Below are positions 4,415 through 25,632 of a stretch of DNA of 64,000 nucleotides, one piece after another. A program made the translations under genes and the position numbers. The stretch comes from a virus: IMG/VR virus record IMGVR_UViG_3300032282_005862, positions 34,630 through 98,629 of that record. One strand, 5' to 3'. Below the pieces are notes generated by a model that ran no database searches, was not told the origin of the DNA, and was given only the letters and a program-made list of their open reading frames with translations. How positions within the stretch are numbered: position 1 is the stretch's first letter; each line of letters starts with the position of its first letter.

Positions 4415-4802
4415 GGGCCAGATTTGGTTTCGATTTTAGGAATTAGAATTGAAATGCAAGTGGAGGTTGAATCGAGGACTCCTTAAAAAGTTTCAATTAT
4501 ATTAACTGCCAAAACAGCAAAATATAAAGGTCATATTTCTGCAAGAGTTTCTCTTGTTGAGATGACCGCTTCTGTAGCCTAAGTTCTACAGCGTGATATC
4601 CACGACACATCTACTGGAATATTGCGTAATTAGATGTTTGAGTATAATAAGTTTTTTTATTCTTTTTTTATTCAATATCTAAAATAAAATCGCTAAGTAT
4701 GTTTGTTGTTTATCTATACGAAGTTAAAAATAAAAACAACTAAACTTGTAGTATTTTAATTTGTATTCTCTAAAAGAAGCGGTTCGACTCCGCACTGGTC
4801 CA
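4415..4802 (+). ncRNA. ssrA: One-piece transfer-messenger RNA (tmRNA)
   Basis: The two ends form a tRNA-like acceptor stem: GGGCCAG (4415-4421) pairs with CTGGTCC (4795-4801, one G-U), with discriminator A at 4802 and CCA not encoded. The 5' side continues with TTTGGTTTCGAT, close to the conserved tmRNA 5' segment. The 3' side has a T arm with loop TTCGACT (4783-4789) closed by GCGG/CCGC. An internal tag reading frame runs from GCA 4517 (or in-frame GCC 4508) to TAA 4580-4582. The tag starts AKYKGH from GCA and ends MTASVA, 21 residues (24 if GCC is used), with a small-residue end like other degradation tags. CTGTAG/CTACAG around the stop forms the usual helix 5. tmRNA rescues stalled ribosomes with SmpB; no smpB gene is seen here. 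It is about 388 nt, normal for the family. Confidence 0.92.
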
Positions 4803-4869
4803 AGTAAACGAATTGATTCGCCTCCAATTTATATTAGAATATAGTTTCTCATTGATATATAATATAAAA

Positions 4870-7079: not shown

Positions 7080-8048
7080 GTGAATATACTTTGGCCAGAG
7101 ATGCATATATATTTGACGCAAAATATGGCGTCAGCATTTAAAAAAATGGGCCATAGATTAATTATTCCATCAGATCAATACAAACCAACTCACCATGTTC
7201 AATGGCAAAATAAAGAAAATATATGGGCTTGGAATACTTACTGGAATCAAGAAAAAGCAAAAAAAGAAATTGGTGATAATGTTTTAGTTTTATCAAAACA
7301 AGAAATATTAGATTTAAAACCTGAAATCATATTTTTAACTTGCGTTGAATCACAGCCAGAAATTTTAAATGAATTATATCCACATTTAAAAAATACAAGT
7401 AAATTTGTAGCGTATAGTGGAAATGATTATTGGGATGGAGCTTATGATTTTTATACTATTAAAAATTATCTTTGCGCAGATTTTACTGGATATCTTTTGT
7501 CTTTAAAATATGGATTAAATTATTTATATTATAAACCAGAAGTAAATTATGATTTTTTTAAATACCAAGGAATAAGTAATGGCAATATTTTTGGATCATA
7601 TATAAATAATTATAAAATAGGATTTCCTCAAGATTATGAATTTTGTTTTAATTTTATGAATAGTATAAAAGAAATAAAATTTCAACCATGTGATAAATGT
7701 ACAAGGCCAGAAATGCTTGAAAATTTAAAAAATAGTATTGGTACAATACATGTAAAACATCTTGAAGGATATGGATATTCTGTTATAGAAAGTCTTGCTG
7801 CTGGTAGGCCTGTATTTTTAAGTAGAGCTTATTCGCAAAATAAAAGTCTAAAACAATGGTGTTTAGAAAATGAAACAGCATTATTTTTTGATACTGAAAT
7901 GGATCTAAAAATGAAGATATTATATTATATGGAAAGCCAAGAACTTAGACATTACATGCAACAACAATCAGCAAAAATAGTCAGAGAAATTATAAATAAT
8001 GAAAAAGAATTTGAAAAATTAAAAAACTTTATAAATAATTTAGTATGA
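7080..8048 (+). CDS. Glycosyltransferase, GT-B (GT4-like)
   Basis: A 322-residue protein, start GTG 7080 giving NILWPEMHIY, with a possible TAAAAT -10 box 5 nt upstream. The C-terminal half has HVKHLEGYGYSVIESLAAGRPVFLS (about residues 223-247), the family pattern in which the Glu of E-G-x-G-x-x-x-x-E-S-L-A-x-G-x-P binds the sugar nucleotide. It would transfer a sugar to a glycan or protein. It begins a run of genes that overlap by 4 nt (ATGA), so they are probably translated together. The donor and acceptor are unknown. Confidence 0.8.
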   Translation: MNILWPEMHIYLTQNMASAFKKMGHRLIIPSDQYKPTHHVQWQNKENIWAWNTYWNQEKAKKEIGDNVLVLSKQEILDLKPEIIFLTCVESQPEILNELYPHLKNTSKFVAYSGNDYWDGAYDFYTIKNYLCADFTGYLLSLKYGLNYLYYKPEVNYDFFKYQGISNGNIFGSYINNYKIGFPQDYEFCFNFMNSIKEIKFQPCDKCTRPEMLENLKNSIGTIHVKHLEGYGYSVIESLAAGRPVFLSRAYSQNKSLKQWCLENETALFFDTEMDLKMKILYYMESQELRHYMQQQSAKIVREIINNEKEFEKLKNFINNLV

Positions 8049-8824
8049 GAATTCCAAATCAATATATAATATTCGCAAATCAATTAGGAATAGATATAGC
8101 AGATATAGTTAGACTTGATAAATTTAAGTATATAAGAGAAGATTTTCCATTAAAATGCTTAGAAATATATAAATCACCATTTTCAAAAATTAGACTTGGC
8201 AAAGATAACGATGGTGGTTATATTATTGCTGATTTAAATAAATATGATAGTTTTTTAAGTTGTGGAGTAAAAGATGATATTTCTTTTGAAGAAGCTTTCA
8301 TTAACAAATATAATTTAAATTGCACAGCCTTTGACCATTCCATTCAACAATTACCAAGCAATAATTCTAAGATAAAATTCATTAAAAAACAAATATCTGA
8401 TATTAATTCCGAAAATGAAGATAATTTACATAATTATATAAATGATTTTAATAATATTTTCTTGAAAATGGATATAGAAGGAGATGAGTATCTTTGGATT
8501 AATACAATTAATAAAAATCAACTATTAAAATTCAAGCAAATAGCAATAGAATTTCATGAACCTTATGAAAAAATAAAATGGCGTATGATAGAAAAAATTA
8601 ATGAAACTCATTACGCCATTCATTTTCATCATAATAATTGTAGCTCAACATGTAAATTTAATAATTTGACAATGCCAGAAAACTTTGAATTAACATTTGT
8701 TAGAAAAAATGAATTTGATAATTTACCGCAATTAAATGAAGAAAAATTTCCAACACAACTTGATCAAGCTAATGACGTATCTAGACCAATTTATTTTTTC
8801 AATAAATATCCTTTTGTAAAATGA
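8045..8824 (+). CDS. FkbM-type methyltransferase
   Basis: A 259-residue protein. The region with RLGKDNDGGYIIAD and SCGVKDDISFEEAF is the S-adenosylmethionine-binding part, and FLKMDIEGDEY (about residues 138-148) is the signature LKxDIEGxE of FkbM-family methyltransferases. These enzymes usually O-methylate sugars or polyketides. It is coupled at both ends by ATGA overlaps to glycosyltransferase genes, so a methyl group on a phage-directed glycan is the likely product. Confidence 0.8.
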   Translation: MRIPNQYIIFANQLGIDIADIVRLDKFKYIREDFPLKCLEIYKSPFSKIRLGKDNDGGYIIADLNKYDSFLSCGVKDDISFEEAFINKYNLNCTAFDHSIQQLPSNNSKIKFIKKQISDINSENEDNLHNYINDFNNIFLKMDIEGDEYLWINTINKNQLLKFKQIAIEFHEPYEKIKWRMIEKINETHYAIHFHHNNCSSTCKFNNLTMPENFELTFVRKNEFDNLPQLNEEKFPTQLDQANDVSRPIYFFNKYPFVK

Positions 8825-9540
8825 AATTATTAATAAATTTGCCTACGCGTGGAAGACCAGAAAGAGCACTTAAGCTTTTAGATTTGTATATAGAGAATTC
8901 TACACATAATGATATTTATTTTATTATAAGTTGTGACGAAGATGATCAACAAATGAACAATCTTCAGACTATTGATGAGTTTCAAAAAAGAAAAAATGTA
9001 AAGGTTATATTTAATGAAAATAAAATCTTAGTAAATAATAATGGTAATATTGAAAAAAGTAATTTTACAACAAAAATAGCAGCAATTAATTCTGGAGTAA
9101 AAGATCAAAATTTTGATATATGTCTTTTAGCTAGTGATGATATGTTTCCAGAAATTAAAGGATATGATTCTATAATTGTTGAGCATATGCAAAAATATTT
9201 TCCAGATACAGATGGAGTTCTTTGGTATAATGATGGATATCAAGCTGACAAATTAAATACTCTATGTATTTTTGGCAAAAAATATTACGATAGATTCAAT
9301 TATATATACAATCCATCATATCTTTCTTTATATTGCGACAATGAATTTACAGAAGTATCAAAAATTTTAAAGAAAGTAATATATATAGATCAAATTATTA
9401 TTAGACATAATCATTGGTCAATTAATAATAATGAAAAATGTTTTAAAAAAGATAAAATAGATGAAAAAAATGATATTTTTGCTGGATACGATCAAATGAT
9501 ATTTGAACAAAGAAAATTTAATAGATTTTATTTAAAATGA
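8821..9540 (+). CDS. Glycosyltransferase family 2-like
   Basis: A 239-residue protein beginning KLLINLPTRGRPERALKLLDLY, a GT-A fold first strand. IISCDEDD (about residues 38-45) and LLASDDMFPE (about 101-110) provide candidate DxD metal/donor sites. A final part with IIRHNHWSIN could hold the catalytic loop. It overlaps neighbours by 4 nt on both sides and belongs to the same translational unit. Donor and acceptor are unknown. Confidence 0.75.
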   Translation: MKLLINLPTRGRPERALKLLDLYIENSTHNDIYFIISCDEDDQQMNNLQTIDEFQKRKNVKVIFNENKILVNNNGNIEKSNFTTKIAAINSGVKDQNFDICLLASDDMFPEIKGYDSIIVEHMQKYFPDTDGVLWYNDGYQADKLNTLCIFGKKYYDRFNYIYNPSYLSLYCDNEFTEVSKILKKVIYIDQIIIRHNHWSINNNEKCFKKDKIDEKNDIFAGYDQMIFEQRKFNRFYLK

Positions 9541-10376
9541 TAGTTCAAATAACAATGACAAAAAACGAATGCTTTCTGTTAAAAGAAATGCTTGAAGTAT
9601 GGAAGAATTATGCAGATGCATTTATATTTTTTGATGATGGATCTACAGATGAAACTTACGATTTTTTAATGCACAACAAGGAAAAATATAATATTTTAAA
9701 AGTTTTAAGAAATGAACAAAAAAACGAAGAACTTTGGATAGAGACAAATAATAGACAATTACTTTATGATGAAGCATTAAAATATTCTAATAAAATAATT
9801 TGTATGGATTCAGATGAATATCTTGATGGAAACATGACAAAAGAACAATTAGAAGATCTTTTAGATAAAAATCCAGATACCACATTCAATTTAGATTGGA
9901 TTCAATACACATCTCAAAATGAAATACGAGTAGATGGACCATGGAAGGTAAACACAAAAGATAGAATTGGATCATATTCAACAAGAGCATTTTTTCAATT
10001 TGCACAAATGCACTCGACTCATCTACCATATACAGCTAAAAATATTTACATAAAAACTCCAGATCTATTTATCGCTCATCTTCAATGGCTAGATAAACAA
10101 ACGGTAGCTATAAAACAATACTTTTGGAAGGTTACAGACTATTTAAATAGATTAAAATTTAATATACCAACGTTACCACCTCAAGCTTATGATGAATCAG
10201 TAGCTAATTTTAATTGGGAATATAAAAAGTTCCATTTTCCATTAAAAATAGATTCTGCTATATATAGCAAACAATCTATAGAAGATAATTATAAACTAAA
10301 ATTTATAAAAGAAAATACAATAAAATATAATATACCAAATTTAAATGATTGGGGTTTAAATTTGATTAATTTATAA
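9537..10376 (+). CDS. Glycosyltransferase family 2/92-like
   Basis: A 279-residue protein. It starts IVQITMTKNECFLLKEMLEVW, then FIFFDDGSTDET (about residues 30-41) and IICMDSDEYLDGN (about 83-95). NE and DDGSTD are classical GT2 donor-site motifs, and DSDEY gives the acidic metal site seen in GT92-like enzymes. It is the last gene of the ATGA-coupled run; the next gene has its own class 1 promoter. Confidence 0.8.
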   Translation: MIVQITMTKNECFLLKEMLEVWKNYADAFIFFDDGSTDETYDFLMHNKEKYNILKVLRNEQKNEELWIETNNRQLLYDEALKYSNKIICMDSDEYLDGNMTKEQLEDLLDKNPDTTFNLDWIQYTSQNEIRVDGPWKVNTKDRIGSYSTRAFFQFAQMHSTHLPYTAKNIYIKTPDLFIAHLQWLDKQTVAIKQYFWKVTDYLNRLKFNIPTLPPQAYDESVANFNWEYKKFHFPLKIDSAIYSKQSIEDNYKLKFIKENTIKYNIPNLNDWGLNLINL

Positions 10377-10389
10377 TTTATAATATAAT
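10362..10389 (+). promoter_or_regulatory. Class 1 promoter (N16)
   Basis: TTGATT (10362-10367), 16-nt spacer, TATAAT (10384-10389), 8 nt, ATG at 10398. The -35 box lies inside the end of the upstream gene. Confidence 0.5.
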
Positions 10390-10397
10390 ATATAAAT

Positions 10398-12014
10398 ATG
10401 AGCATACCAATGTATTACTGCACAGCTATAGATGACAGACATTTACCATTATTATTGAACTTAATTGGAAGTATTCATAAATTTCATTTTGATCAATTAG
10501 AAGAAATTATGGTATACGACTTAGGATTGAGTAAAGAATCTAAAGAAAAATTAGAAAATATTCAAAAATTAAAGATCTATGAAATAGAAAAACTTAATCC
10601 ACAAATTCTTGAAGATCTTCAAACTGATGAACATAGATATGTAAAGGGGTTATTCTCTTGGAAACCCGTAGTTATTAAAGATGCATTAGATAAAGTTCCA
10701 TATGTCTTATACTTGGACTCTGGAACCACCTTATTAAAACCAATAGATATTTTATTTAAACATATTATCCAAAATGGATATCTATTATTTGATTGTGGGC
10801 ATTCAATAAAATGGATGACAACTAAATATATTATAGATAAATTTAATCTTGAATCAGATGAAAATAAATGGATTTTAAATGATAATACATTTGGAATAGA
10901 CGCAGGGTTTCAAGGTATGTCTAGAAGTGTGTACGATAATTATATTATGCCTATGTATGAACTTTGCAAAGACATTAAAAACTTTGTAGATGATAAAACT
11001 TGCCCCAATGGATGGGGATGCGGAAGACACGATCAAACTCTTTATAGTATTTTAGCGAGAAAATTAAATTTACATATAGAAAATCACGACGTAGAAGGAT
11101 GTAGCCTTAATGTAGATGCTCAAAAAGTCCCATTTGATATAACCCATACTCCACATAAAGTTACAGATAAAACTTACATTTTTAGATCAAGATGGACACT
11201 ACCAAGTCAATTTACAGATCATAACATATCGATGATTAGAATCAAACAAGAGCCAAATAATATTTTATTAGAAAAAGCTAAAAATGATTTTCAGAAATTT
11301 AGTAAAGAATGGGTTAATTCAAAAGATTATAATGCAAAAATATACTCTTATTTCAAAGATCAAATAAATTTTTATCCATTTTTAAATGACCACAATGAAA
11401 TTGTAACAAAATATAATTTAGGTTATGGTGAAAAAGCTTTTAGATATCTTTGGTTTTTAGTATTATCTCAAATACCAAAAAATGGAAAATTCCTAGAAAT
11501 AGGAGTGTTTAAAGGATCAATACTTGCTCTGTCTCAAGTCGTCTCTAAACAATTCAATTTAAATATAACTTCATTTGGAATTACCCCACTTAATAATACT
11601 GGAGATAAATACTCAAATTACATAAATGAGGACTATGAAAAAAGTATTTTATTTTTATATCAACAACTAGGGTTAGATTTATTTAATACAAAAATAATGC
11701 ATGGACTATCAACAGACGAGAGCGTAAAACATCTTGCAAAAGAACATGGACTATATGATATAGTTTATATTGATGGCGGACATGATTATGAAACAGTTGT
11801 AAATGATATAGAATTAACTAATAAAATCTTGAAAAAAGATGGATTATTAATAATGGATGACGCATCTTCATTTTTAGAATTTAACCATAATCACGAAGGA
11901 TTTACTGGGCATAAAGATGTTGCTCAAGCAATAAAAGATAAGATTGATGTAGGCGATACCTACATTCACCTTTTTGCTTGTGGACATAATAGAGTATGGA
12001 GGAAAATAAAATAA
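10398..12014 (+). CDS. Fusion: glycosyltransferase plus class I SAM methyltransferase
   Basis: A 538-residue two-domain protein. Residues about 1-300 start MYYCTAIDDRHLPLLLNL and contain VLYLDSGTTLLKP (about 105-117), the DxD-type site of a GT8-like GT-A enzyme, and GRHDQT near residue 213. Residues about 330-538 form a methyltransferase with FLEIGVFKGS (motif I, about 367-376), DIVYIDGGHDYETV (about 453-466) and KILKKDGLLIMDDA, a Methyltransf_24-like arrangement. Fusion suggests that one polypeptide adds and then methylates a sugar. Confidence 0.8.
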   Translation: MSIPMYYCTAIDDRHLPLLLNLIGSIHKFHFDQLEEIMVYDLGLSKESKEKLENIQKLKIYEIEKLNPQILEDLQTDEHRYVKGLFSWKPVVIKDALDKVPYVLYLDSGTTLLKPIDILFKHIIQNGYLLFDCGHSIKWMTTKYIIDKFNLESDENKWILNDNTFGIDAGFQGMSRSVYDNYIMPMYELCKDIKNFVDDKTCPNGWGCGRHDQTLYSILARKLNLHIENHDVEGCSLNVDAQKVPFDITHTPHKVTDKTYIFRSRWTLPSQFTDHNISMIRIKQEPNNILLEKAKNDFQKFSKEWVNSKDYNAKIYSYFKDQINFYPFLNDHNEIVTKYNLGYGEKAFRYLWFLVLSQIPKNGKFLEIGVFKGSILALSQVVSKQFNLNITSFGITPLNNTGDKYSNYINEDYEKSILFLYQQLGLDLFNTKIMHGLSTDESVKHLAKEHGLYDIVYIDGGHDYETVVNDIELTNKILKKDGLLIMDDASSFLEFNHNHEGFTGHKDVAQAIKDKIDVGDTYIHLFACGHNRVWRKIK

Positions 12015-12015
12015 T

Positions 12016-12240
12016 ATGACTAATCAAGAATTATTAGAAGCAAGAAAACTTTATATTTCAGAGGTTGATACTCCAAATTCTTGGATTGGGACAGGTTTTA
12101 GCGCTATATGCGAATTAGGCATTGCAAAAGGTTATTATCCAATAATACATTTTGGAAATGTTTTTTTTAGGTGAAATTAATTTCTTAAAAGAAAAAAATA
12201 CGATCTAAATCCAGATATTCCAAGCATGTACAATTGGTAA
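12016..12240 (+). pseudogene. 75-codon gene with two compensating homopolymer frameshifts
   Basis: ATG 12016 opens a frame that stops at 12172-12174 just after a run of eight Ts (12161-12168). The neighbouring frame continues with LGEINFLKEK to a run of seven As (12192-12198), after which the first frame resumes with KYDLNPDIPSMYNW and stops at 12238-12240. Removing one T and adding one A restores an uninterrupted 75-codon protein. It starts TNQELLEARKLY and contains PNSWIGTGFSAICELG. Either the gene is decaying or the assembly has two homopolymer errors. No family is recognised. Confidence 0.55.
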
Positions 12241-12246
12241 GAATAA

Positions 12247-13026
12247 ATGAATAAAAAGTTAGCACTCTGTTTGAGTGGAGAATTTAGATTTTTTGATCAT
12301 CCACTTATATTAGAAGGTTTTAAAAAATTTCTATTTATATATAATCCAGATATTTTTATATCAACATGGGACCACATAGGGGCATCTATGAATCATGGAT
12401 ATATTGAGCCAAATAGCAAGAAAAATACAGATACAGATATGACTCAAAAGATCAAAGAAGCGTATCCATCTATAAAATATTTAAAAATAGAAAACTATAA
12501 TGCATGGTTCGAAGGATTAGATAAAGTATTAAAAGACACTATATATTTTGGGAATTTTGATCCACGAACAGTAAATTCATATACGCAGTTGTATAAGATA
12601 TATGATTCTATTAGTTTAAAATCAAAATACGAAAAGGAAAATAACTTTAGATATGATATTGTTATTCGGGCCAGAGCAGACAATCTTTTCGTAAATCATT
12701 TTGATTTATCTATTTTACCAAAATCAATTTATAATATAAATTTTGGTGGAGCTTTCTATTCCAATAGAATTTATGATATATTATTCTATGGAGATAGTTG
12801 TTCTATGGACAAGATATCAGAAGCTTTTGTAAATTTTAAAAATTTAATTGCAAATGAGTTTAATAATGGTTTATGCAGAAGAGATGCTTGTAGAATACTT
12901 TATTTACAATCAATTTTATCAAATTTACAAGTTTTATCTACAAATTCCAGATTATGCGATATATATCGAGGAACCTCATTTGAAGAATATTACAATAATA
13001 TTAAACTTTGTGGTGAATTTAAATGA
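12247..13026 (+). CDS. Glycosyltransferase-like protein
   Basis: A 259-residue protein beginning KKLALCLSGEFRFF, followed by DIFISTWDH and later DIVIRARADNLF (about residues 138-149). The pair LSGxxR near the N-terminus and RxRxD in the middle is typical of a group of phage and bacterial proteins annotated as glycosyltransferase-like and found in polysaccharide islands. The RARAD segment would supply the acidic metal site. It sits between the broken 75-codon gene and the dehydrase gene, which has its own promoter. Confidence 0.6.
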   Translation: MNKKLALCLSGEFRFFDHPLILEGFKKFLFIYNPDIFISTWDHIGASMNHGYIEPNSKKNTDTDMTQKIKEAYPSIKYLKIENYNAWFEGLDKVLKDTIYFGNFDPRTVNSYTQLYKIYDSISLKSKYEKENNFRYDIVIRARADNLFVNHFDLSILPKSIYNINFGGAFYSNRIYDILFYGDSCSMDKISEAFVNFKNLIANEFNNGLCRRDACRILYLQSILSNLQVLSTNSRLCDIYRGTSFEEYYNNIKLCGEFK

Positions 13027-13083: not shown

Positions 13084-14403
13084 ATGGATAAAGAATTATC
13101 TGATATTTTAACTAAAATTAGTATCTTTTTAGATAAAAGAAGTAATAAAAAATGGACACCAAAAGAACACTGGGTTCAATATGCTGGACCATATTTTAAT
13201 AATGAAGAATATTTATCAGCAATAGAGACTCTTCTTGGAGGATGGCTTGTACTTGGCGAGAAAGGGATATCCTTCGAGAATCAATTCCCTAAAATTCTAA
13301 ATAAAGAATATGGGATATTAACTAATAGTGGAAGCAGTTCTAATTTAATTATGATGTCAGCAATGACATCTAAAAGACTTTATAATTTTCCTAAAGGTAC
13401 AAAAGTAATAACTCCAATAGCTGGATTTCCAACTACAATTAATCCAATTTTTCAAGTTGGATTTATTCCAGCTTTTGTTGATATTGATTTAGATACTCTT
13501 AATCTTAATTTAGACCAAGTTGAGGAGCAAGCAAAAAATGGTGCTAAAATTATTACATTTGCACATGTTTTAGGAAACCCGCCAAACATGAGAGCTTTAA
13601 TGGAAATTGTTAAAAAATATAATTTAATACTATTGGAAGATTGTTGTGATGCTCTTGGATCAACATTTGACAATAAACCCCTTGGCAGCTTTGGAGAATT
13701 TGCAAGTTGTTCTTTTTATCCTGCCCACCATATAACAATGGGAGAAGGAGGATTTGTGGCATGTAATACTTATCAACAAGAAATTGTAGCGAGAAGTTTT
13801 AGGGAATGGGGAAGAGGATGTTATTGCGTTGGAAAAAAAGCTAATCTTTTAAAAAACGGAACTTGCAAAAATAGATTCGCAAATTGGTTGCCTTCTTTGC
13901 CAGATGAAATTTTTGACCATAAATACGTTTATGATGAAATTGGTTATAATTTAAAGCCAATAGAATTACAAGCTGCGATGGGCTTAGTTCAAATGAAAAA
14001 GCTTCCAGAGATAAATACTCTTAGAAAACTTAATCATTCTAGATTGACTCAAATCTTTTATAAGTTTGAAGAATATTTTATATTACCTAAAACTACCGAT
14101 TGGGCAGATCCAAGTTGGTTTGCTTTCGCTCTAACAATCAAAGATAATGCTCCATTTAAAAGAAAAGATATTGTTCATTTTCTTGAAGATAAAAAAATTC
14201 AAACTCGCCCATATTTTGCTGGAAATATTATGTTGCAACCAGCTTACTCTGGAATGATACCACAAGAAGATATTATAAAAAATTATCCAATTGCAAGAAA
14301 AGTAACAACTGATACATTCTTTTTAGGAACAAGTCCAGTTATAACAAATCAACAATTAGATTACGTTGAAGAAGTGGTAAACGAATTTTTTAAAACTATA
14401 TGA
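13084..14403 (+). CDS. DdhC/E1-like PLP and [2Fe-2S] NDP-4-keto-6-deoxyhexose 3-dehydrase
   Basis: A 439-residue DegT/AspC-fold enzyme. YPAHHITMGEGG (about residues 212-223) has His in place of the PLP-binding Lys, as in the 3-dehydrase E1/DdhC (RfbH). Cys188, Cys246, Cys248 and Cys261 give C-X57-C-X1-C-X12-C, matching the first part of the family's [2Fe-2S] motif (C-X57-C-X-C-X7-C) with a longer last gap. Family members remove the C3 hydroxyl of CDP-4-keto-6-deoxyglucose on the way to 3,6-dideoxyhexoses such as abequose, tyvelose or ascarylose. The partner reductase (DdhD) is not seen here. It is the first gene after a consensus promoter and overlaps the next by 4 nt. Confidence 0.85.
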   Translation: MDKELSDILTKISIFLDKRSNKKWTPKEHWVQYAGPYFNNEEYLSAIETLLGGWLVLGEKGISFENQFPKILNKEYGILTNSGSSSNLIMMSAMTSKRLYNFPKGTKVITPIAGFPTTINPIFQVGFIPAFVDIDLDTLNLNLDQVEEQAKNGAKIITFAHVLGNPPNMRALMEIVKKYNLILLEDCCDALGSTFDNKPLGSFGEFASCSFYPAHHITMGEGGFVACNTYQQEIVARSFREWGRGCYCVGKKANLLKNGTCKNRFANWLPSLPDEIFDHKYVYDEIGYNLKPIELQAAMGLVQMKKLPEINTLRKLNHSRLTQIFYKFEEYFILPKTTDWADPSWFAFALTIKDNAPFKRKDIVHFLEDKKIQTRPYFAGNIMLQPAYSGMIPQEDIIKNYPIARKVTTDTFFLGTSPVITNQQLDYVEEVVNEFFKTI

Positions 14404-15353
14404 AAATTGTATATGTAACAGGTTGTTTAGGTTTTATTGGCTCTTACATCACAAGGCTATGCCTTCAAAAAGGATGGTATGTAAAAGGCGTAGACAAGAT
14501 TACTTACGCAGCAAATAAAGATTTGCTAGATGAGTTTAATAAAAATCTAAACTTCTCATTCGTACATTGTGATATAAATGACCTTAAATTTTTATATGAT
14601 TGCGATTATATTATCAATACTGCAGCAGAAACTCATGTTGGAAATTCAATAAGCAATAGTGATGATTTTATACATTCAAATATTGATGGCGTACATAATT
14701 TGTTAGAATTAATTAGAAATTACCGACAAGAACATACAAGAGTTCCTACTCTAATCCATTTTAGTACAGATGAAGTTTATGGAGATGTTGATCAAGGAGC
14801 ACATACAGAAAAAGATTTGCTTAAGCCATCTAATCCGTATTCGGCAACAAAAGCAGCAGCAGATATGTTAATTTTAGCATGGGCTAGAACTTACAAAACA
14901 AATTATATCATTGTAAGACCTACAAATAATTATGGGATTGGTCAATATGTAGAAAAACTTATCCCAAAGACATGTAAATATTTAAATTTAGGTAGAAAAA
15001 TACCTCTGCATAACTCTGGAGCACCAATTAGAAATTGGCTTCATGCAGAAGACACAGCTAATGCAATTATAAAAATCATTGAAAATGATGTCAGAAATGA
15101 AATATATAATATTGCAGGTGGATTTGAGCAATCAAATCTAGATACAGTAAGAAAAATATTAGAGGTATATTTAAATACAAAAGATTTTAATTTATTAGAT
15201 TATGTAGATTTATCTTACTCCAGACAAGGACAAGATGTTCGATATGCGTTAGATGATACTAAATTAAGAAATTTAAACTGGATGCCAAATAAAAATTTTA
15301 ATCAAGAAATAAAAGGTATAGTTAATTACTATAATAATAAATTTATATGGTAA
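14400..15353 (+). CDS. NDP-glucose 4,6-dehydratase-like SDR enzyme
   Basis: A 317-residue extended short-chain dehydrogenase. GCLGFIG (residues 8-14) is the NAD-binding glycine motif. STDEVYGD (about 121-128) carries the Asp-Glu pair of RmlB/CDP-glucose 4,6-dehydratases. YSATK (about 147-151) is the YxxxK pair. It would make the 4-keto-6-deoxy sugar used by the upstream 3-dehydrase. Whether the nucleotide is CDP or dTDP cannot be read from the sequence. It overlaps the genes on both sides. Confidence 0.85.
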   Translation: MKIVYVTGCLGFIGSYITRLCLQKGWYVKGVDKITYAANKDLLDEFNKNLNFSFVHCDINDLKFLYDCDYIINTAAETHVGNSISNSDDFIHSNIDGVHNLLELIRNYRQEHTRVPTLIHFSTDEVYGDVDQGAHTEKDLLKPSNPYSATKAAADMLILAWARTYKTNYIIVRPTNNYGIGQYVEKLIPKTCKYLNLGRKIPLHNSGAPIRNWLHAEDTANAIIKIIENDVRNEIYNIAGGFEQSNLDTVRKILEVYLNTKDFNLLDYVDLSYSRQGQDVRYALDDTKLRNLNWMPNKNFNQEIKGIVNYYNNKFIW

Positions 15354-15973
15354 AAGAAGATTTAATAAATTTTGAAAAAGAAATAGCCGACTTATTTAAT
15401 TCTGGTAAGATAAAATCTCCAGTTCATCTTTATTCTGGAAATGAAGATCTTATGATTGAAATTTTTAAAAATATTGATATTGAGAATGATTGGGTATGCT
15501 CTGCATGGCGCAACCATTATCAAGGTTTATTAAAAGGAATACCCCAAGAAATATTAAAGCAAAATATTTTACAAGGTAAGTCTATGGTGGCTAATTTACC
15601 AGAATATAAATTCATATGTAGTTCTATAGTTGGTGGAATTCCTTCAATTGCAGCGGGGATTGCTATGTCAATTAAAGTTAAAAATAAAACTAATAAAGTT
15701 TGGTGTTGGGTTGGGGATATGTCTTCTGAAACTGGCGCTTTTCATGAAGCTTACAAATATAGTTTAAATCATGATCTTCCAATTACATTTATAATTGAGG
15801 ATAACAAAAAATCGGTATGCTCACCAACCCAAAAGATTTGGAACAGACAAAAGCCATATTATTTAGATAAAGATTATAGTGGAGGACTATTAATTCAAAA
15901 AAATTTAATATATTATCAATATGACAATCAAAAATATCCTCACGCTGGAGCAGGGAAAAGAGTACAATTTTAA
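15347..15973 (+). CDS. Thiamine-diphosphate enzyme, E1-alpha/transketolase N-terminal-like subunit
   Basis: A 208-residue protein. VWCWVGDMSSETGAFHEA ... ITFIIEDNK (about residues 120-150) is the ThDP-binding motif GD(G)-X(about 25)-(N/D)N, with Met in place of the third Gly. CSAWRNHYQGLLKG and SIVGGIPSIAAGIA are typical of E1-alpha/transketolase phosphate-binding regions. At about 200 residues it is a minimal domain. The following gene supplies the pyrimidine-binding half. In sugar clusters such pairs may transfer a short carbon unit to a keto sugar; the substrate is not known. Confidence 0.8.
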   Translation: MVKEDLINFEKEIADLFNSGKIKSPVHLYSGNEDLMIEIFKNIDIENDWVCSAWRNHYQGLLKGIPQEILKQNILQGKSMVANLPEYKFICSSIVGGIPSIAAGIAMSIKVKNKTNKVWCWVGDMSSETGAFHEAYKYSLNHDLPITFIIEDNKKSVCSPTQKIWNRQKPYYLDKDYSGGLLIQKNLIYYQYDNQKYPHAGAGKRVQF

Positions 15974-15977
15974 TATT

Positions 15978-16514
15978 ATGAAATACTTTGAAGAACTTAA
16001 AAAAGCAATGACTATGCTATCTGAGCACCCTGACACGCTTTTTATAGGGCAATCTATAGAATATGAGGGAACTGGACTTTATGATTCATTAACACATATA
16101 CCAGCTCATAAAAAAATAGAATTGCCAGTAGCAGAATATCTTCAAGCAGGTCTAGCCAATGGAATGGCAATTGAAGGTTTAATCCCAATATCTACTTATC
16201 CGAGATGGAACTTTTTATTAATGGGCACAGATCAAATAGTAAATCACGCTGATAAATTTAAAGAAATGTCTAATGGAAAATGTACCCCAAAATTAATAAT
16301 TCGAGTCGCAGTTGGTAGCGAAAGACCCGTAGATCCACAATGCCAACATAAGGGGAATTTTTCCGAAGCATTTAGATCGATGCTTACTAATACGGAAGTA
16401 ATTGAATTAAATGAACCAGAAGACATTATTCCAGCTTACGAGAAGGCTTTGAATAGAAAGGATGGACTTATAACAATTCTTGTAGAATTCGCTGATTATT
16501 CAAAAGAAAAATGA
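15978..16514 (+). CDS. Thiamine-diphosphate enzyme, E1-beta/transketolase pyrimidine-domain subunit
   Basis: ATG 15978, 4 nt after the stop of the partner gene, is chosen as start, giving KYFEELKKAMTML. IELPVAEYLQAGLANGMAIEG (about residues 46-66) has the catalytic Glu that activates the aminopyrimidine ring. YPRWNFLLMGTDQIVNHADK is the conserved dimer-interface stretch. The C-terminal third lacks a full transketolase C-domain, so the protein is short (179 residues). Together with the preceding subunit it forms a split ThDP enzyme inside the nucleotide-sugar operon. Confidence 0.8.
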   Translation: MKYFEELKKAMTMLSEHPDTLFIGQSIEYEGTGLYDSLTHIPAHKKIELPVAEYLQAGLANGMAIEGLIPISTYPRWNFLLMGTDQIVNHADKFKEMSNGKCTPKLIIRVAVGSERPVDPQCQHKGNFSEAFRSMLTNTEVIELNEPEDIIPAYEKALNRKDGLITILVEFADYSKEK

Positions 16515-16520
16515 TATTTA

Positions 16521-17297
16521 ATGAAAATTTTAATTACTGGTGGAAATGGTTACCTAGCTAAATCAATAGAATACGCTTTATCTAAAACTTATACCATCAC
16601 AAGCATAAGCAGAAAAGATTTCGATTTACAGAATTTAGATTTATTTACAGAATGGTTAAAAGATAAAAATTTTGATATTATAATTCATACGGCAACAGAA
16701 GGTGTGTCAAGATCAAAGCATCAAAATGAAAAAGATCTGGAAGCCAATTTAAAAATGTTTAATAACATTAAAGCTCATAAGGATAAATTTAAAAAATTAA
16801 TATTTTTTGGATCTGGCGCAGAATTATATATGCAAGAAACATATTATGGTAAAAGTAAAAAGTTAATAAATGAAACCATACAAAAAGAAAACAATTTTTA
16901 TAATATAAGAATATTTGCTGTTTTTGATGAAAATGAATTAGATACTAGATTTATAAAATCTAATATTTTAAGATATATTAATAAAAAAGAAATGGTTATT
17001 CATGCGAATAAACTAATGGATTTCTTCTATATGCAAGATTTGATATCTTTAGTTAATTATTATATTAATGAAAAAAATCCCCCCAAAACAATAGATTGTT
17101 CTTACAAAGATAAAAAAAATTTATTAGAAATAGCTAATTTTATCAATACTTTAGATCAATACAAAGTACCAATTAACTTTCAAAAAAATACTCTAGAACA
17201 AGATTATTGTGGCGTAAGTAATTTACCAATTAAACCTATAGGCTTAGAACAAGGAATAAAAAATAGTTTTAGAGAAATTAAAACGAAAACGCTATAA
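16521..17297 (+). CDS. SDR sugar reductase/epimerase (RmlD/WbpK-like)
   Basis: A 258-residue extended SDR protein. ILITGGNGYLAKSI (residues 3-16) binds NAD(P). IIIHTATEGVSRSK (about 54-67) and FFGSGAELY (about 95-103) are the substrate-site strands. YYGKSK (about 109-114) holds the YxxxK pair. Such short SDR proteins usually reduce a 4-keto nucleotide sugar at the end of a pathway. Here it could finish the dideoxy or branched sugar made by the preceding genes. Confidence 0.75.
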   Translation: MKILITGGNGYLAKSIEYALSKTYTITSISRKDFDLQNLDLFTEWLKDKNFDIIIHTATEGVSRSKHQNEKDLEANLKMFNNIKAHKDKFKKLIFFGSGAELYMQETYYGKSKKLINETIQKENNFYNIRIFAVFDENELDTRFIKSNILRYINKKEMVIHANKLMDFFYMQDLISLVNYYINEKNPPKTIDCSYKDKKNLLEIANFINTLDQYKVPINFQKNTLEQDYCGVSNLPIKPIGLEQGIKNSFREIKTKTL

Positions 17298-20353: not shown

Positions 20354-20686
20354 ATGAAAAGCCATAAGCTTTGTCAGTTCATAGCGAAAAAACATATAAA
20401 AGATAAGATAAATTGGCCAAGAGAGATTAAAATTGCTCAAATATTAACTAAAAGATTCAAGGAATTCGAATTTTGGGATAACTTAAGAGATTTTAAGCTT
20501 CCATCTTTGGCATGGTTTCTTAAAAGCGAAGGCAAAGCTTTCCTATTATCAGAATATGAGAAATTTAAATTAAATTTAAATATAGAAGTAATAAAACTGG
20601 AAGATAATAAAGTTCAAGATGATAAAAAGATTTGCAAAAAGCCTAAAAGTTTGATAGAATTTATAAGATATGGCAAAAAAATCTAA
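20354..20686 (+). CDS. Unknown protein upstream of recA
   Basis: A 110-residue basic protein from an ATG exactly at the predicted +1 of a class 1 promoter. Helical segments rich in Lys, Trp and Phe (for example KRFKEFEFWDNLRDFKLPSLAWFLKSEG) dominate. Its last 17 nt overlap the recA-like gene, so the two are probably co-translated. It could assist the recombinase or helicase, but no family is recognised. Confidence 0.6.
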   Translation: MKSHKLCQFIAKKHIKDKINWPREIKIAQILTKRFKEFEFWDNLRDFKLPSLAWFLKSEGKAFLLSEYEKFKLNLNIEVIKLEDNKVQDDKKICKKPKSLIEFIRYGKKI

Positions 20687-21812
20687 AGAAGAAATTATTG
20701 AACCATCTGGTCCAAGTGCATCAGATAGACTATTATCCTTTTTAAAGGAAAATAAAGAAGATCATTACAATTTTGAAGATGAGGTATACTATAAAGTATC
20801 AACTGGTAGTTTAAACCTGGATATCGCTACAAGCGGTGGTTTATGCCCAGGTTTGCATAGATTTATTGGTATGAATGAAGGTGGTAAAACTTCAGAAGCA
20901 CTCGAAGTAACAAAAAACTTTCTTAAAACTGTAGATAATTCTAGAGCTTTGCTCTTTAAAGCAGAAGGAAGATTAAGCAAAGAAATTAAAGATCGCTCTG
21001 GTATCAAGTTCGTAACTGACGCTAAAGAATGGGTTGATGGAACTTGCTTCGTATTTGAATGTAATATTTTTGAAACAGTTTCTGAATTGATGAAAGACCT
21101 CATTCAATCAAATGATGAAAATAAAAGATATATCTTTATTCTTGATTCAGTTGATGGTTTGATGACAAAAGGTGATTCTCAAAAGAGCATGACAGAAGCA
21201 ACAAAGGTTGCTGGTGGAGCAGTCATATCTTCAATGTTGATGAAGAAGATTTCTCTTGCGCTTTCTAAACGTGGACATATGGCAATCTTTATTAGTCAAG
21301 TTCGATCTGATATTAAACTTGATCCTTATGCAGCAAATAAGGATATTCGTCAAACTACTGCAACTGGTGGAAATGCACTATTGCATTTTGCTAATTGGAT
21401 TCTTGAATTTGAACCAAAGTTTAATAAAGACCTTATCCTTGAAAAACCAAATGACAAATATGATCCAATTAAGAATAAAATTATTGGACATAATGTTAAG
21501 ATTGTTATTAAAAAATCCACAAATGAATCTACAAACTCCAAGATTCAGTACCCAATCAAATATGGTCGTAAAGATGGTTCTTCTGTTTGGAGAGAATACG
21601 AAATTATTGATCAAATCCTAGCTTGGGAATTTGCAACTGCAAAAGGAGCATGGGTTACTTTTTCTGATGAAATTATTGAAGAACTTAAAAAAGTAAATCT
21701 AGAGCTTAAGAAGCAACATCAAGGAGTAGATAATCTGAGGTCTTATCTCGAAGAAAATAAACCAATTGTAGACTATTTCTATAACAAATTCATTAATACT
21801 CTTGCGTCATGA
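20670..21812 (+). CDS. recA: RecA/UvsX-family recombinase
   Basis: A 380-residue protein. STGSLNLDIATSGG leads into a Walker A variant GMNEGGKT (residues 67-74; bacterial RecA has GPESSGKT). YIFILDSVDGLM (about 151-162) is Walker B. FISQVRSD (about 209-216) and TATGGNAL (about 229-236) match the RecA loop L1/L2 region (motif ..ISQ.R.. and ..TGGNALKF). The C-terminus is acidic-basic helical. It would form filaments on ssDNA for strand exchange in phage recombination. The base composition here is slightly less AT-rich than in the sugar island. Confidence 0.9.
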   Translation: MAKKSKEEIIEPSGPSASDRLLSFLKENKEDHYNFEDEVYYKVSTGSLNLDIATSGGLCPGLHRFIGMNEGGKTSEALEVTKNFLKTVDNSRALLFKAEGRLSKEIKDRSGIKFVTDAKEWVDGTCFVFECNIFETVSELMKDLIQSNDENKRYIFILDSVDGLMTKGDSQKSMTEATKVAGGAVISSMLMKKISLALSKRGHMAIFISQVRSDIKLDPYAANKDIRQTTATGGNALLHFANWILEFEPKFNKDLILEKPNDKYDPIKNKIIGHNVKIVIKKSTNESTNSKIQYPIKYGRKDGSSVWREYEIIDQILAWEFATAKGAWVTFSDEIIEELKKVNLELKKQHQGVDNLRSYLEENKPIVDYFYNKFINTLAS

Positions 21813-22228
21813 GATTATTAAATATTAACGGCAAGCTCGTTAATAAAAATGTAAGAAATTACGAAATAGATTGGGATGGAAAATGTAGAAGTAAATTGCA
21901 ATTTAAATTCAAGCAATTCTTCTACCCTTACTGGAAAAATCACATTGTATATGAAGAGTTTCCAGTTTATGGAAGTATGCTTAAAGTAGATTTATTAAAT
22001 GCGACTAAAAAGATAGCAGTTGAGATACAAGGTAATCAACACGAGAGCTTTAATAAGTTCTTTCATGATAATTCTAGATTAAAATATCTCCAAAGCATAA
22101 AAAGAGATGTTAAAAAAGAAAAATGGTTAGAAATGAATGGATTTAAGTTTTTAGAACTCTACGAAAATGACTTAAAAAATTTATCACCACAATATATAGA
22201 AGAAAAATGCGGAATATTAATTATTTAA
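21809..22228 (+). CDS. PD-(D/E)xK / Vsr-like endonuclease
   Basis: A 139-residue protein starting in a 4-nt overlap with recA. KVDLLNATKKIAVEIQGNQHE (about residues 51-71) is the D ... ExQ core with the trailing Gln-His of very-short-patch-repair and DUF559-like nucleases. FKFLELYENDL near the end matches their last strand and helix. With recA upstream, a role in recombination or DNA processing is likely. The substrate cannot be stated. Confidence 0.7.
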   Translation: MRLLNINGKLVNKNVRNYEIDWDGKCRSKLQFKFKQFFYPYWKNHIVYEEFPVYGSMLKVDLLNATKKIAVEIQGNQHESFNKFFHDNSRLKYLQSIKRDVKKEKWLEMNGFKFLELYENDLKNLSPQYIEEKCGILII

Positions 22229-22235
22229 GTGTAAA
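22229..22235 (+). promoter_or_regulatory. Class 2 (GTGTAAA) motif
   Basis: GTGTAAA, 8 nt before the GTG start at 22244, overlapping the stop region of the upstream nuclease gene. Confidence 0.35.
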
Positions 22236-22243
22236 ATTTTCTG

Positions 22244-22519
22244 GTGACAAATAAGAAAAAATTCAATTTTCCAGACTCTCTTTTAAAGCAAATTGATGAA
22301 TGCAGTTTTGGCGGATATATTCTTTTTAATTTTTCCAGCAAAGGTGAACCGCAAGTATATACAAAATTTGATAATCAAATAAATGCCATGGCACTTTTAT
22401 ATTATATTAATACATGGAGTCAAAGTATTGACCAGTTGAATTTAGAAGCAACAACAGATCAAATTGCAAGAAAAAATCAAGAAGACGATGATTTTGATGA
22501 TTCAGAAGATAAAGATTAA
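22244..22519 (+). CDS. Small acidic-tailed protein
   Basis: A 91-residue protein from GTG 22244 (no better start is seen). It has a folded-looking part with GGYILFNFSSKGEPQVY and a C-terminus of mostly Asp/Glu (QEDDDFDDSEDKD), which recalls the acidic tails by which ssDNA-binding proteins contact replication partners. It lies between the nuclease and the helicase. No family is recognised. Confidence 0.55.
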   Translation: MTNKKKFNFPDSLLKQIDECSFGGYILFNFSSKGEPQVYTKFDNQINAMALLYYINTWSQSIDQLNLEATTDQIARKNQEDDDFDDSEDKD

Positions 22520-22522
22520 AAC

Positions 22523-22551
22523 TTGACTTTTAATTTCTAATTTGGTATGAT
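22523..22551 (+). promoter_or_regulatory. Class 1 promoter of the replication operon
   Basis: TTGACT (22523-22528), 17-nt spacer, TATGAT (22546-22551), 9 nt including AAAGG, ATG at 22561. The leader would be at most 3 nt, too short for ribosome binding at the AGG. Confidence 0.65.
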
Positions 22552-22560
22552 ATATAAAGG

Positions 22561-24045
22561 ATGATTTACTCCTTACAAGTAGAAAGACACGTATTAAGTG
22601 GTTTATTAAAGCATCAAGATCTTTTTGCGGATGTTGATGTATTTTTAACTGAAAATGATTTTTATAATGATGTTCATTCATCAATATATACTGTATTTAA
22701 AAATATTAAGCATAAAGGTGAAAATGTAGATAAAGTCTTATTAGCTGAAAAGATTAAGAATCTTGGAATTACATTCAAAGACGAAATTAATATATTTGAT
22801 TATATTGATAATTTAAGCTTCTCACAGATTACAGAAGAAGCCACAATGAACGCTTGTAAAGAGTTAATTAAATTAAGAGTCCGTAGAGAAATATCTCAAA
22901 CAGCAGATAAATTAAAAGAATATGTAAATAAAAACTCCGAAGATTCAATGGATGAGATCATTGGTAAAATTGATCAAATTTATAATAAAAAGATATCATC
23001 ATATTCAGAAAATGATGTGCCAATTAATATTTTTGAAGGAGTTGAAGATCTTGTTGAAGAAATTGGAAATAGCCCTAAAGAAGATACTGGTTTGATAACT
23101 CCATATTCTGAATTTAATAGAATGTATGGTGGTTTAAAGAATGGTAATATTTATGCAATTGCAAGTAGACCAGGTCAAGGAAAATCAACTTGGTTAAATG
23201 ATATCTGTTTTAAAACTTCAATTAATCCTAAAAATAAAACTAAAACTCTTATTCTTGATACTGAAATGCAAACAGTAGATATTCAATTAAGAATGGTTGC
23301 GTCTTTAAGTGGAGTTCCAGTTTGGTATCTTGAAACTGGTAATTGGCGTAAAAATGAAGAAATGACAAAAAAAGTAAGAGAAGCTTGGGATAAAGTTAAA
23401 AAATATGAATACTTTCATTATCATGTAGGCAATAAAAATATTGATCAAGTATGCTCTATTATTCGTAGATGGTATCTTTCTAAAGTTGGCAGAGGAAATC
23501 AAGCTATGATCGCTTATGATTATATTAAATTAACTGGAGAAAAAGTAGGTCAAAATTGGGCAGAACATCAAGCAATTGGAGATAAGATTGATAAACTTAA
23601 AAGAATCTCAGAAGAAATTCATTGTCCAATTATTACTGCTATGCAATTAAATCGAACTGGTGAAAGTTTTAATAGAAAAGGTTCAGAAGTTGTGGATGAT
23701 AGCTCTGTAATTTCTCTTTCGGATAGATTACAATGGTTTGCGTCATTCGTAGCAATCTTTAGAAGAAAAACTTTAGATGAGATTACTCTTGATGGCCAAA
23801 CATTTGGAACGCATAAATTGATTCCAACTAAAACTAGATTCCAAGGAAAAGATGCAGCTGGTCATCAAGATTTAGTTAGAAGACTAGATTGTACTGGTAA
23901 AGAAATATGGTCACAAAATTATTTAAATTATAATGTTCAAAACTTTAATATTGAAGAAAGAGGATCACTCGCAGATGTAGCAGAGCGTCAAAGAGAACAA
24001 TACGAACTTAATGATGCAAATGCAAATGACGGAGAATTATTATGA
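22561..24045 (+). CDS. dnaB: DnaB-type replicative helicase
   Basis: A 494-residue protein of normal family length. The N-terminal domain (about 1-110) resembles DnaB-N. A linker precedes the RecA-like ATPase with SRPGQGKST (Walker A, 202-210), LILDTEMQ (about 232-239), MIAYDYIKLTG (Walker B) and MQLNRTGE. It unwinds DNA ahead of the phage polymerase and recruits the primase encoded two genes downstream. It overlaps thyX by 4 nt. Confidence 0.92.
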   Translation: MIYSLQVERHVLSGLLKHQDLFADVDVFLTENDFYNDVHSSIYTVFKNIKHKGENVDKVLLAEKIKNLGITFKDEINIFDYIDNLSFSQITEEATMNACKELIKLRVRREISQTADKLKEYVNKNSEDSMDEIIGKIDQIYNKKISSYSENDVPINIFEGVEDLVEEIGNSPKEDTGLITPYSEFNRMYGGLKNGNIYAIASRPGQGKSTWLNDICFKTSINPKNKTKTLILDTEMQTVDIQLRMVASLSGVPVWYLETGNWRKNEEMTKKVREAWDKVKKYEYFHYHVGNKNIDQVCSIIRRWYLSKVGRGNQAMIAYDYIKLTGEKVGQNWAEHQAIGDKIDKLKRISEEIHCPIITAMQLNRTGESFNRKGSEVVDDSSVISLSDRLQWFASFVAIFRRKTLDEITLDGQTFGTHKLIPTKTRFQGKDAAGHQDLVRRLDCTGKEIWSQNYLNYNVQNFNIEERGSLADVAERQREQYELNDANANDGELL

Positions 24046-24698
24046 ATGTAGATTTAATATCAATTACAAAACCAGAAATTAAAGGAATTAAAAATCCAGA
24101 AGATTTAGTAGCATTTTGTGCTAGAGTTAGTAATCCATCTAATCAAATGAATGTAGAAACTGCTCCCAAATTATTAAAATTCTTAATAAAGCATAAACAT
24201 TGGAGTCCATTTGAACTTGTTGATATGTGCGTTGAGATAAAAACTAGTAGAGGAATTGCAGCTCAAATTCTTAGACATAGATCATTTAGCTTCCAAGAGT
24301 TTAGTCAAAGATATAGTATTGCAAACGAATTTGAAGATGTTGAGCTTCGTTTGCAAGGAGATAAAAATAGGCAAGTGGGAGAGATTCTTATGCCCACAAA
24401 TACGGATGCATACGATAAAATTAATGAACTTCTAGTAGAATCTTTATCTCTTTCACAACATTGTTATGATACAATGATTGAAAACGGAGTAGCAAAAGAA
24501 GTAGCAAGAATGATATTACCCTTGAGTACTCAAACCACAATGTATATGAAAGGATCTTTAAGAAGTTGGATTCATTATATTGAATTGAGAACCGAACAAA
24601 ATACCCAAAAAGAACATAGAATGATTGCTGAAAAATGTAAAAAAATCTTTATTAAAGAATTTCCTATAATAAGCGAGGCATTAGAATGGATCAAGTAA
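24042..24698 (+). CDS. thyX: Flavin-dependent thymidylate synthase
   Basis: A 218-residue protein. RHRSFSFQEFSQRYS (residues 78-92) is the ThyX signature RHRxxSxxxxSxR. LPLSTQTTMYMKGSLRSWIHYIELRTEQNTQKEHR (near residues 150-200; only its ends LPLST and RTEQNTQKEHR need be noted) provides the dUMP and FAD-binding end. The enzyme makes dTMP from dUMP using methylenetetrahydrofolate and FAD, useful for an AT-rich phage. It overlaps neighbours on both sides in the replication operon. Confidence 0.93.
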   Translation: MNVDLISITKPEIKGIKNPEDLVAFCARVSNPSNQMNVETAPKLLKFLIKHKHWSPFELVDMCVEIKTSRGIAAQILRHRSFSFQEFSQRYSIANEFEDVELRLQGDKNRQVGEILMPTNTDAYDKINELLVESLSLSQHCYDTMIENGVAKEVARMILPLSTQTTMYMKGSLRSWIHYIELRTEQNTQKEHRMIAEKCKKIFIKEFPIISEALEWIK

Positions 24699-25591
24699 AT
24701 GTTTATCAAATTTTAACTGATTTAGGATATAAGTTAAAAGATTTTGGAAAAGAGTATAGAGCTAAACCCCTTTATAGAGATAGCGATAATGACACTGTGT
24801 TAAAAATTTACAAAGATACTGGTCATTGGTTTGATTTTAAAGAAAATATTAGTGGCGATTTTAGTTCATTAGTGGGAATGACATTAAAACTAGAAGATCC
24901 GAATAAAGCTAAAGAATGGTTAAAAGATAAAAATTTTGCATTTCATCAACCTAAAGAAATTTCCAAACCACTTCTTAAATCAACAAAAAAGTTTGATTTG
25001 GATCTTTTATCTAATTTAGAAAACGATAATTCATATTGGAATAAAAGAGGCATTAATAATGAGACTCTTGATCAATTTAAAGGTGGAGTAGGAAAAGCTG
25101 GAAAAATGAAAAACAGATACGTTTTCCCTATATTTGATATTAAAAATAATATTATAGGATTTTCTGGTAGAGATATTACAAATCTTTCTAAAATTAAGTG
25201 GAAGCATCTTGGAGAAAAAAGTGATTTTCTTTATCCATTATTTTTAAATTCAGAAGCTATACAATCTCAGAAAGAGATTATTCTTGTAGAAAGTATTGGC
25301 GATATGTTAAGTTTGTATCAAGCTGGAATTAAAAATATTTTAGTAACATTTGGAACAAGTTTAAGTTTAGCAATTTTAAATTATTGTTTAAAGATTGATA
25401 TGAAGAAAATTTATATTAGCCTAAATAATGATTCAGATAAAAACAACGCAGGTAATATTGGTGCAGAAAAAACCTATTCAAGACTTAAAAGATATTTTGA
25501 TGATAAACAATTAAAAATAGCCCTACCAAGTAAAAAAGATTTTGGAGAAATGAATAAAGAAGAAATATTAACATGGAAAAACAATCTCTAA
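24686..25591 (+). CDS. DnaG-type TOPRIM primase without classical zinc cysteines
   Basis: A 301-residue protein. The N-terminus keeps the outline of a CHC2 zinc domain (YRAKPLYRDSDN ... WFDF, residues about 24-51) but has no cysteines, so it probably binds no zinc. The central part has FPIFDIKNNIIGFSGRDI, typical of DnaG-like proteins. The TOPRIM core is IILVESIGDML (E202 and D206) with SLNNDSDKN further on as the DxD. It would make RNA primers for the phage replisome. The protein is short compared with bacterial DnaG (about 600) and lacks the helicase-interaction domain. Confidence 0.85.
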   Translation: MDQVNVYQILTDLGYKLKDFGKEYRAKPLYRDSDNDTVLKIYKDTGHWFDFKENISGDFSSLVGMTLKLEDPNKAKEWLKDKNFAFHQPKEISKPLLKSTKKFDLDLLSNLENDNSYWNKRGINNETLDQFKGGVGKAGKMKNRYVFPIFDIKNNIIGFSGRDITNLSKIKWKHLGEKSDFLYPLFLNSEAIQSQKEIILVESIGDMLSLYQAGIKNILVTFGTSLSLAILNYCLKIDMKKIYISLNNDSDKNNAGNIGAEKTYSRLKRYFDDKQLKIALPSKKDFGEMNKEEILTWKNNL

Positions 25592-25618
25592 AATAGTGGA
25601 GCAAAAAGGGTAAAAGTA

Positions 25619-25625
25619 GTGTAAT
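25619..25625 (+). promoter_or_regulatory. Class 2 (GTGTAAT) motif
   Basis: GTGTAAT, 7 nt before the ATG of the GIY-YIG gene at 25633. Confidence 0.45.
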
Positions 25626-25632
25626 AATTTTT

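Follow-up and report, generated by a model that had tools for sequence, protein, structure and literature searches.

We analyzed a window of 64,000 nucleotides from an uncultured virus (positions 34,630 to 98,629 of IMG/VR record IMGVR_UViG_3300032282_005862, which is 98,629 bases long). Between positions 13084 and 17297, this window carries a tight row of genes for a sugar 3-dehydrase, a sugar 4,6-dehydratase, the alpha and beta subunits of a thiamine diphosphate (ThDP) enzyme (here ThA and ThB), and a short-chain dehydrogenase/reductase (SDR), with a Gmd-like gene next in line. With moderate confidence, and on the basis of sequence comparisons, we propose that this row is a phage cassette for a C2-branched 3,6-dideoxy sugar nucleotide resembling yersiniose. 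Hidden Markov model profile searches upheld the enzyme set listed in a first-pass annotation of the same DNA, and a gene-by-gene check found all five genes where that annotation had placed them. Because the same five-gene set was found again in many divergent viral contigs, its assembly is not due to chance. Our search of the literature on yersiniose and phages found no phage-encoded pathway.

The yersiniose A pathway of Yersinia pseudotuberculosis comprises CDP-glucose 4,6-dehydratase, the 3-dehydrase E1/RfbH, E3, YerE, and a reductase. For the phage cassette, we infer the reactions and their order, the donor, the nucleotide, the stereochemistry, the reductase partner, and the destination of the product. 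The RmlB-like 4,6-dehydratase would produce a nucleoside diphosphate (NDP)-4-keto-6-deoxyhexose, probably linked to dTDP. The RfbH-like enzyme, dependent on pyridoxamine 5'-phosphate (PMP) and a [2Fe-2S] cluster, would take off the C3 hydroxyl with the help of host reducing power. The short E1-type heteromer would then decarboxylate pyruvate and add an acetyl carbanion onto the C4 ketone, the SDR would reduce the side-chain ketone to a hydroxyethyl group, and neighboring glycosyltransferases may place the yersiniose-like product on a glycan. YerE itself transfers activated acetaldehyde from pyruvate onto CDP-3,6-dideoxy-4-keto-D-glucose (PMC12247030). This acceptor is the kind of product expected from an RmlB-like plus an RfbH-like enzyme. 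Pyruvate-dependent C2 addition at the C4 ketone is the simplest reading of the cassette.

ThA matches PF00676 (E1_dh), and ThB matches E1-beta models and, slightly under the cut-off, PF02779 (Transket_pyr; 26.3 versus 27). The conserved start of ThB is the ATG at position 15978, four bases past the alpha stop; the longest open reading frame starts at the ATG at 15921. AlphaFold models were built separately for ThA from 32 locus sequences and for ThB from 28 (mean predicted local distance difference test score, 91 each), and their best structural matches were pyruvate dehydrogenase (PDH) E1-alpha and E1-beta, respectively. Both in sequence and in fold, the pair most resembles the E1 of pyruvate and branched-chain 2-oxo acids, not transketolase. 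The first-pass annotation had assigned the two genes to the E1 type rather than the YerE type and had named structure prediction of the heterodimer as a check; the E1 fold of both models agrees with that assignment. PF02776, the marker of the three-domain TPP_enzyme N/M/C architecture of YerE-like enzymes, was not found in the source record.

Our models revealed that ThA consists of a PP domain only and ThB of a PYR domain only, each approximately half of a known subunit; profile and structure matches of ThB stop before the C-terminal transketolase domain. His57 and Asn153 of ThA are constant in 32/32 sequences and position 124 is Asp in 28 and Glu in 4, and in ThB, Glu53, Phe79, and His124 are constant in 28/28. 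We take these positions to be metal and ThDP ligands and active-site groups, with roles assigned from human E1p. The ThDP motif, which could have been non-functional, is thus intact, and because these residues are kept across relatives, the pair is probably active.

The 3-dehydrase scored 448.6 bits against the NCBIfam RfbH model NF011936, above the curated cut-off of 423, and its nearest solved structures were 3bcx and 3bb8, the Yersinia CDP-4-keto-6-deoxyglucose 3-dehydrase (E 2e-99). Cys188, Cys246, Cys248, and Cys261 form a C-X57-C-X-C-X12-C arrangement, that is, four cysteines for a [2Fe-2S] cluster; in the alignment, the spacing ahead of the last cysteine is X12 in the phage enzyme versus X7 in Yersinia E1. 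His215 aligns with the catalytic His of E1 in place of the aminotransferase Lys, which 3bb8 has at this position. Alignment thus bore out two features already read from the sequence in the first pass, the C-X57-C-X-C motif with a fourth Cys and the exchange of Lys for His. We rejected the His-type DegT protein as a marker of ThDP coupling: all 78 DegT proteins near the pair are of the His type, but so are 27/28 in control phage RmlB loci. As an observation in its own right, the DegT proteins of these phage sugar loci (the control set, L238 to L317) are almost all His-type dehydrases and not aminotransferases.

The RmlB-like gene, whose start at 14400 falls inside the 3-dehydrase stop, scored 297 bits against TIGR01181 (dTDP-glucose 4,6-dehydratase), under its cut-off of 365, and 78 bits against the CDP-glucose-type 4,6-dehydratase model, whose cut-off is 278. 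Its translation contains the motifs STDEVYG and YSATK, which are invariant in the alignment of relatives. The type of this enzyme suggests that the sugar is likelier to be carried on dTDP than on CDP or GDP, the nucleotides expected initially.

We then asked how consistently these genes occur together, using 53 non-redundant viral loci that extend 5 kb or more on each side of ThA. Within 5 kb of ThA, we found ThB in 53/53 loci, an RmlB of the window's subfamily (RmlB-core) in 47, an SDR in 46, a His-type DegT dehydrase in 43, and RfbH proper in 33. For comparison, only 2 of 16 control RmlB genes had a dehydrase inside 5 kb. RmlB-core directly touches ThA in 43/74 loci. Among 51 well-covered loci centered on RmlB-core, the pair was present in only 5 and RfbH in 32, and this nesting suggests that the pair supplements a common RmlB/RfbH base with a tailoring step. 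FastTree phylogenies of RmlB-core and RfbH required at least 30 and at least 28 changes, respectively, between presence and absence of the pair (shuffled means, 48.8 and 37.5). These data suggest that exchange has been frequent, although single-gene trees of mosaic phages are a weak basis.

Many loci without the pair carry a three-domain ThDP enzyme of ∼580 to 600 amino acids. PF02776 was present in 21/30 RmlB-core records lacking the pair versus 1/35 control phage records, and the best solved relative of the three-domain enzyme was 8rph (378 bits, versus 273 for acetolactate synthase), which is the YerE-like carboligase JanthE (PMC12188165). The gene order of one such locus, L328, is RfbH (87% identical to that of the window), RmlB (79%), the YerE-like gene plus three genes, SDR (63%), Gmd (80%), a small gene (66%), and a RecA-like gene (89%). 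That of the window is RfbH, RmlB, the pair, SDR, Gmd, a nucleotidyltransferase, the same small gene, and the RecA-like gene. Two other relatives, L002 and L331 (RecA-like proteins 94% and 95% identical), carry the pair and the YerE-like gene, respectively; L331, like L328, keeps the gene order of the window. The pair and the YerE-like gene therefore share a position in close relatives. The two ThDP types avoid each other: both within 8 kb were seen in 0/39 loci centered on RmlB and in 0/37 centered on RfbH (Fisher p = 0.0013 and 0.003). One can tentatively picture an interchangeable slot after RmlB and RfbH, filled either by a YerE-like enzyme or by a minimal, mostly viral E1-type heteromer that would constitute a new ThDP family, with undescribed C2-branched 3,6-dideoxy sugars varying the glycans of virion or host surface; we hold this wider proposal with some doubt.

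NeuB-like genes were found beside 14/71 YerE-like loci versus 0/67 loci with the pair alone, which would fit a broader choice of donors by the YerE type. Such genes adjoin the YerE-type carboligase in L327 (10961-14532), L328 (10948-15456), and L338 (10920-15439), and in the last two, 3-dehydroquinate-synthase-like genes are also present there. Possibly, these additional genes serve to make a tailored 2-oxo acid for use as the donor, or else a product that is cyclised.

Several observations weigh against the proposed pathway and its slot. The Fisher tests for mutual avoidance of the two ThDP types ignore shared ancestry, and the exclusion is incomplete, as 5/39 loci chosen for the pair also carry a YerE-like gene. 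Ten of the 53 ThA loci have no 3-dehydrase inside 5 kb, and known E1-type branching enzymes appear to possess a domain that is missing from the minimal pair. Bacteria and cyanophages carry the pair without RmlB or RfbH, in heptose-like or UDP-sugar contexts (with genes for SIS isomerase, GHMP kinase, a ColD-like dehydrase, and a B12-binding radical SAM protein, or for UDP-glucose dehydrogenase), and the acceptor may therefore vary between loci. Our searches of the source record found neither an E3 reductase (PF00175 and PF00111) nor a ferredoxin, and PF00175 was not found in 16 related viral records either (17 records searched in all); we therefore propose that reducing power comes from the host. 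SpnQ, a 3-dehydrase without a dedicated E3, can draw its electrons from ferredoxin or flavodoxin systems of a general kind (PMC8987622), a precedent showing that E3 is not needed in every case.

Could the product of RmlB, RfbH, and SDR be a 3,6-dideoxyhexose without any branch, while the pair acts independently, for example by branching the product of Gmd? RfbH occurs without either ThDP type in 11/37 viral loci, the Gmd-like gene adjoins the row, and ThA is found without RmlB-core in 6/53 loci and also in bacteria. Nevertheless, the tight linkage of RmlB-core to ThA and the alternation of the pair and the YerE-like gene between the same RmlB/RfbH and SDR genes make this explanation unlikely. 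It is also rather improbable that the pair transfers some other C2 or longer unit, such as hydroxyacetyl, to a keto sugar. The fold of ThB matches transketolase-family proteins too, the small subunits could admit other donors, and hydroxyacetyl transfer has been proposed for the split-gene transketolases of miharamycin and amipurimycin (PMC12247030). However, those transketolase matches are weaker than the ones to 2-oxo-acid E1, and pyruvate is the donor of the E1-type branching enzymes known so far.

Homology to PDH E1 might instead mean that the pair decarboxylates 2-oxo acids in general, or is what is left of a dehydrogenase E1 after reduction, and serves metabolism with no link to sugars. 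We find this very improbable: the pair scored 77 bits against the PDH E1 equivalog model, whose cut-off is 394, the C-terminal domain of beta is missing, and the pair lies in sugar loci wherever it was found. A search of two related carrier phage records, which did not extend to the source record of the window, found no lipoyl domain. Bacterial carriers of ThA/ThB also have separate full-length E1-alpha genes. Together with the low scores, these results make a role as the E1 of a dehydrogenase complex unlikely. The loss of the beta C-terminal domain and of ∼40% of a normal alpha subunit could also point to a non-functional remnant, an idea to which we give very little credence, as both frames are open and the active-site residues are constant down to relatives only 44 to 48% identical.

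A pathway to a branched 3,6-dideoxy sugar is the best-supported reading of the cassette, as the first-pass annotation had suggested as a possibility, but its further step from an E1-type enzyme to a possibly new product does not follow. Pairs of the E1 type (alpha-KADH2) have been shown or proposed to form C2 branches in avilamycin, paulomycin, aldgamycin, and kibdelomycin (PMC4425429, PMC12247030; see also PMC10338323), and they seem restricted to C2 branches (PMC12247030). Given this known or proposed route, and with YerE-like enzymes in sister phages, the E1 type alone is no sign of a new product. What is new here is that a minimal family of the E1 type exists and is exchanged with YerE-like enzymes within a single phage cassette. 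The pair may act like AviB1/AviB2 without being a standard member of the alpha-KADH2 branching enzymes.

Relatives of the pair are numerous in IMG/VR, where 446 stretches were confirmed for alpha and no fewer than 522 for beta. Cellular genomes rarely carry them; one scan, queried with a close relative, returned seven. Searches of 386 cyanobacteria and 385 alphaproteobacteria recovered only the seed genome in each set and no bacterial donor lineage for the family, and a plasmid search returned nothing but ordinary E1-alpha at ≤30% identity. In P-TIM68 and S-SM2, both of them cultured phages, alpha and beta are fused. Five bacterial loci (L014, L015, L017, L018, and L019) have in common a radical SAM protein of ∼515 amino acids that includes a B12-binding domain (checked with Pfam in L015); several of them encode a ColD-like His-type dehydrase, a GHMP kinase, or a SIS isomerase. 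These loci represent an undescribed sugar cluster of marine bacteria. Two different ThA/ThB pairs occur within one phage locus in L038 (9010-18657) and in L082 (1272-10300), and in L038, a ColD-like dehydrase follows the second pair, as in bacteria.

Features of the cassette and adjoining genes, with positions in the window
Feature	Position	Strand	Evidence
RfbH/E1-type PMP-dependent [2Fe-2S] sugar 3-dehydrase, 439 aa	13084..14403	+	NF011936, PDB 3bcx, four Cys and His215
RmlB-like NDP-glucose 4,6-dehydratase, 317 aa	14400..15353	+	TIGR01181; overlaps both neighbors
ThA, short E1-alpha-like ThDP PP-domain subunit, 208 aa	15347..15973	+	PF00676, model, conserved residues
ThB, short E1-beta-like PYR-domain subunit, 178 aa	15978..16514	+	E1-beta models, predicted structure, invariant residues
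SDR, proposed side-chain ketoreductase, 258 aa	16521..17297	+	PF01370/PF04321 (Epimerase/RmlD-type)
Gmd-like GDP-mannose 4,6-dehydratase, 388 aa	17304..18470	+	TIGR01472, 323 bits, below the cut-off of 415
Nucleotidyltransferase + EcbF/BcbF-type HAD phosphatase + kinase-like fusion, 614 aa	18478..20322	+	PF00483, TIGR01689, phrog_4098
Glycosyltransferase and methyltransferase genes upstream of the cassette	7080..13026	+	PF00535, PF13578, translations

Whether the Gmd-like gene has a part in the sugar pathway is uncertain. The glycosyltransferases and methyltransferases upstream of the cassette are possible users of the sugar. Elsewhere, the phage has siphovirus-like tail genes (J protein and tape measure) and, at 20670-31558, genes for a RecA/UvsX-like protein, a DnaB-like helicase, and a DnaE-type polymerase; the best cultured-phage relatives of the RecA/UvsX-like protein are ≤26% identical. 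A phage transfer-messenger RNA lies at 4415-4803 (Rfam RF00023, 92 bits), with an unusual predicted tag, AKTAKYKGHISARVSLVEMTASVA, whose last residues are SVA.

If the pair is a carboligase, its size would be unusually small for a sugar-branching enzyme of the E1 type, and it would be a candidate for use as a biocatalyst in making chiral tertiary alcohols. Phages would then encode their own production of branched sugars and swap catalysts of different ThDP superfamilies at one genome position. Variation in phage-made glycans could be tested directly on such a case, which would point to widespread virus-made sugar chemistry.

Like the yersiniose A pathway, the phage cassette combines a 4,6-dehydratase, an RfbH-type Fe-S 3-dehydrase, a ThDP enzyme, and a reductase, and a hydroxyethyl branch at C4 would be expected. 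It differs in being phage-borne, in its RmlB-type dehydratase, in that no E3 was found, and in the E1-type pair that replaces the YerE flavoprotein. The pair resembles YerE, ErwE, and JanthE in its proposed reaction and cassette position, with a JanthE-like gene at that position in sister phages, whereas these three enzymes have the three-domain acetolactate-synthase fold and belong to another ThDP superfamily. To our knowledge, SpnQ of spinosyn biosynthesis has no ThDP partner. Like the phage enzyme, SpnQ is an RfbH-like Fe-S 3-dehydrase; it acts, as the phage enzyme probably does, on a dTDP sugar with no dedicated E3 (PMC8987622), but it serves a 2,6-dideoxy sugar of an antibiotic. AviB1/AviB2, Pau11/Pau12, EvdU5/EvdS3, and KbDH are, like the pair, two-subunit PDH-E1-like ThDP enzymes of deoxysugar clusters. 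Pairs of the AviB1/AviB2 type in actinomycete antibiotics are known or proposed to form a C2 branch from pyruvate, and in paulomycin a separate ketoreductase reduces the branch (PMC4753412), as is proposed for the phage SDR. In contrast to these antibiotic pairs, the phage pair has an RfbH-type 3-dehydrase as its partner, and its subunits have 208 and 178 amino acids, whereas the antibiotic subunits are of full size (Pau11 and Pau12 with 325 and 345 amino acids; PMC4425429). The "transketolase central region" proteins of cyanophages P-TIM68 and S-SM2 (phrog_34187) belong to the same ThDP family, are ∼40% identical, and also lie in sugar loci; they differ in that alpha and beta are fused in one protein of 402 amino acids with heptose-like neighbors and no adjoining RfbH.

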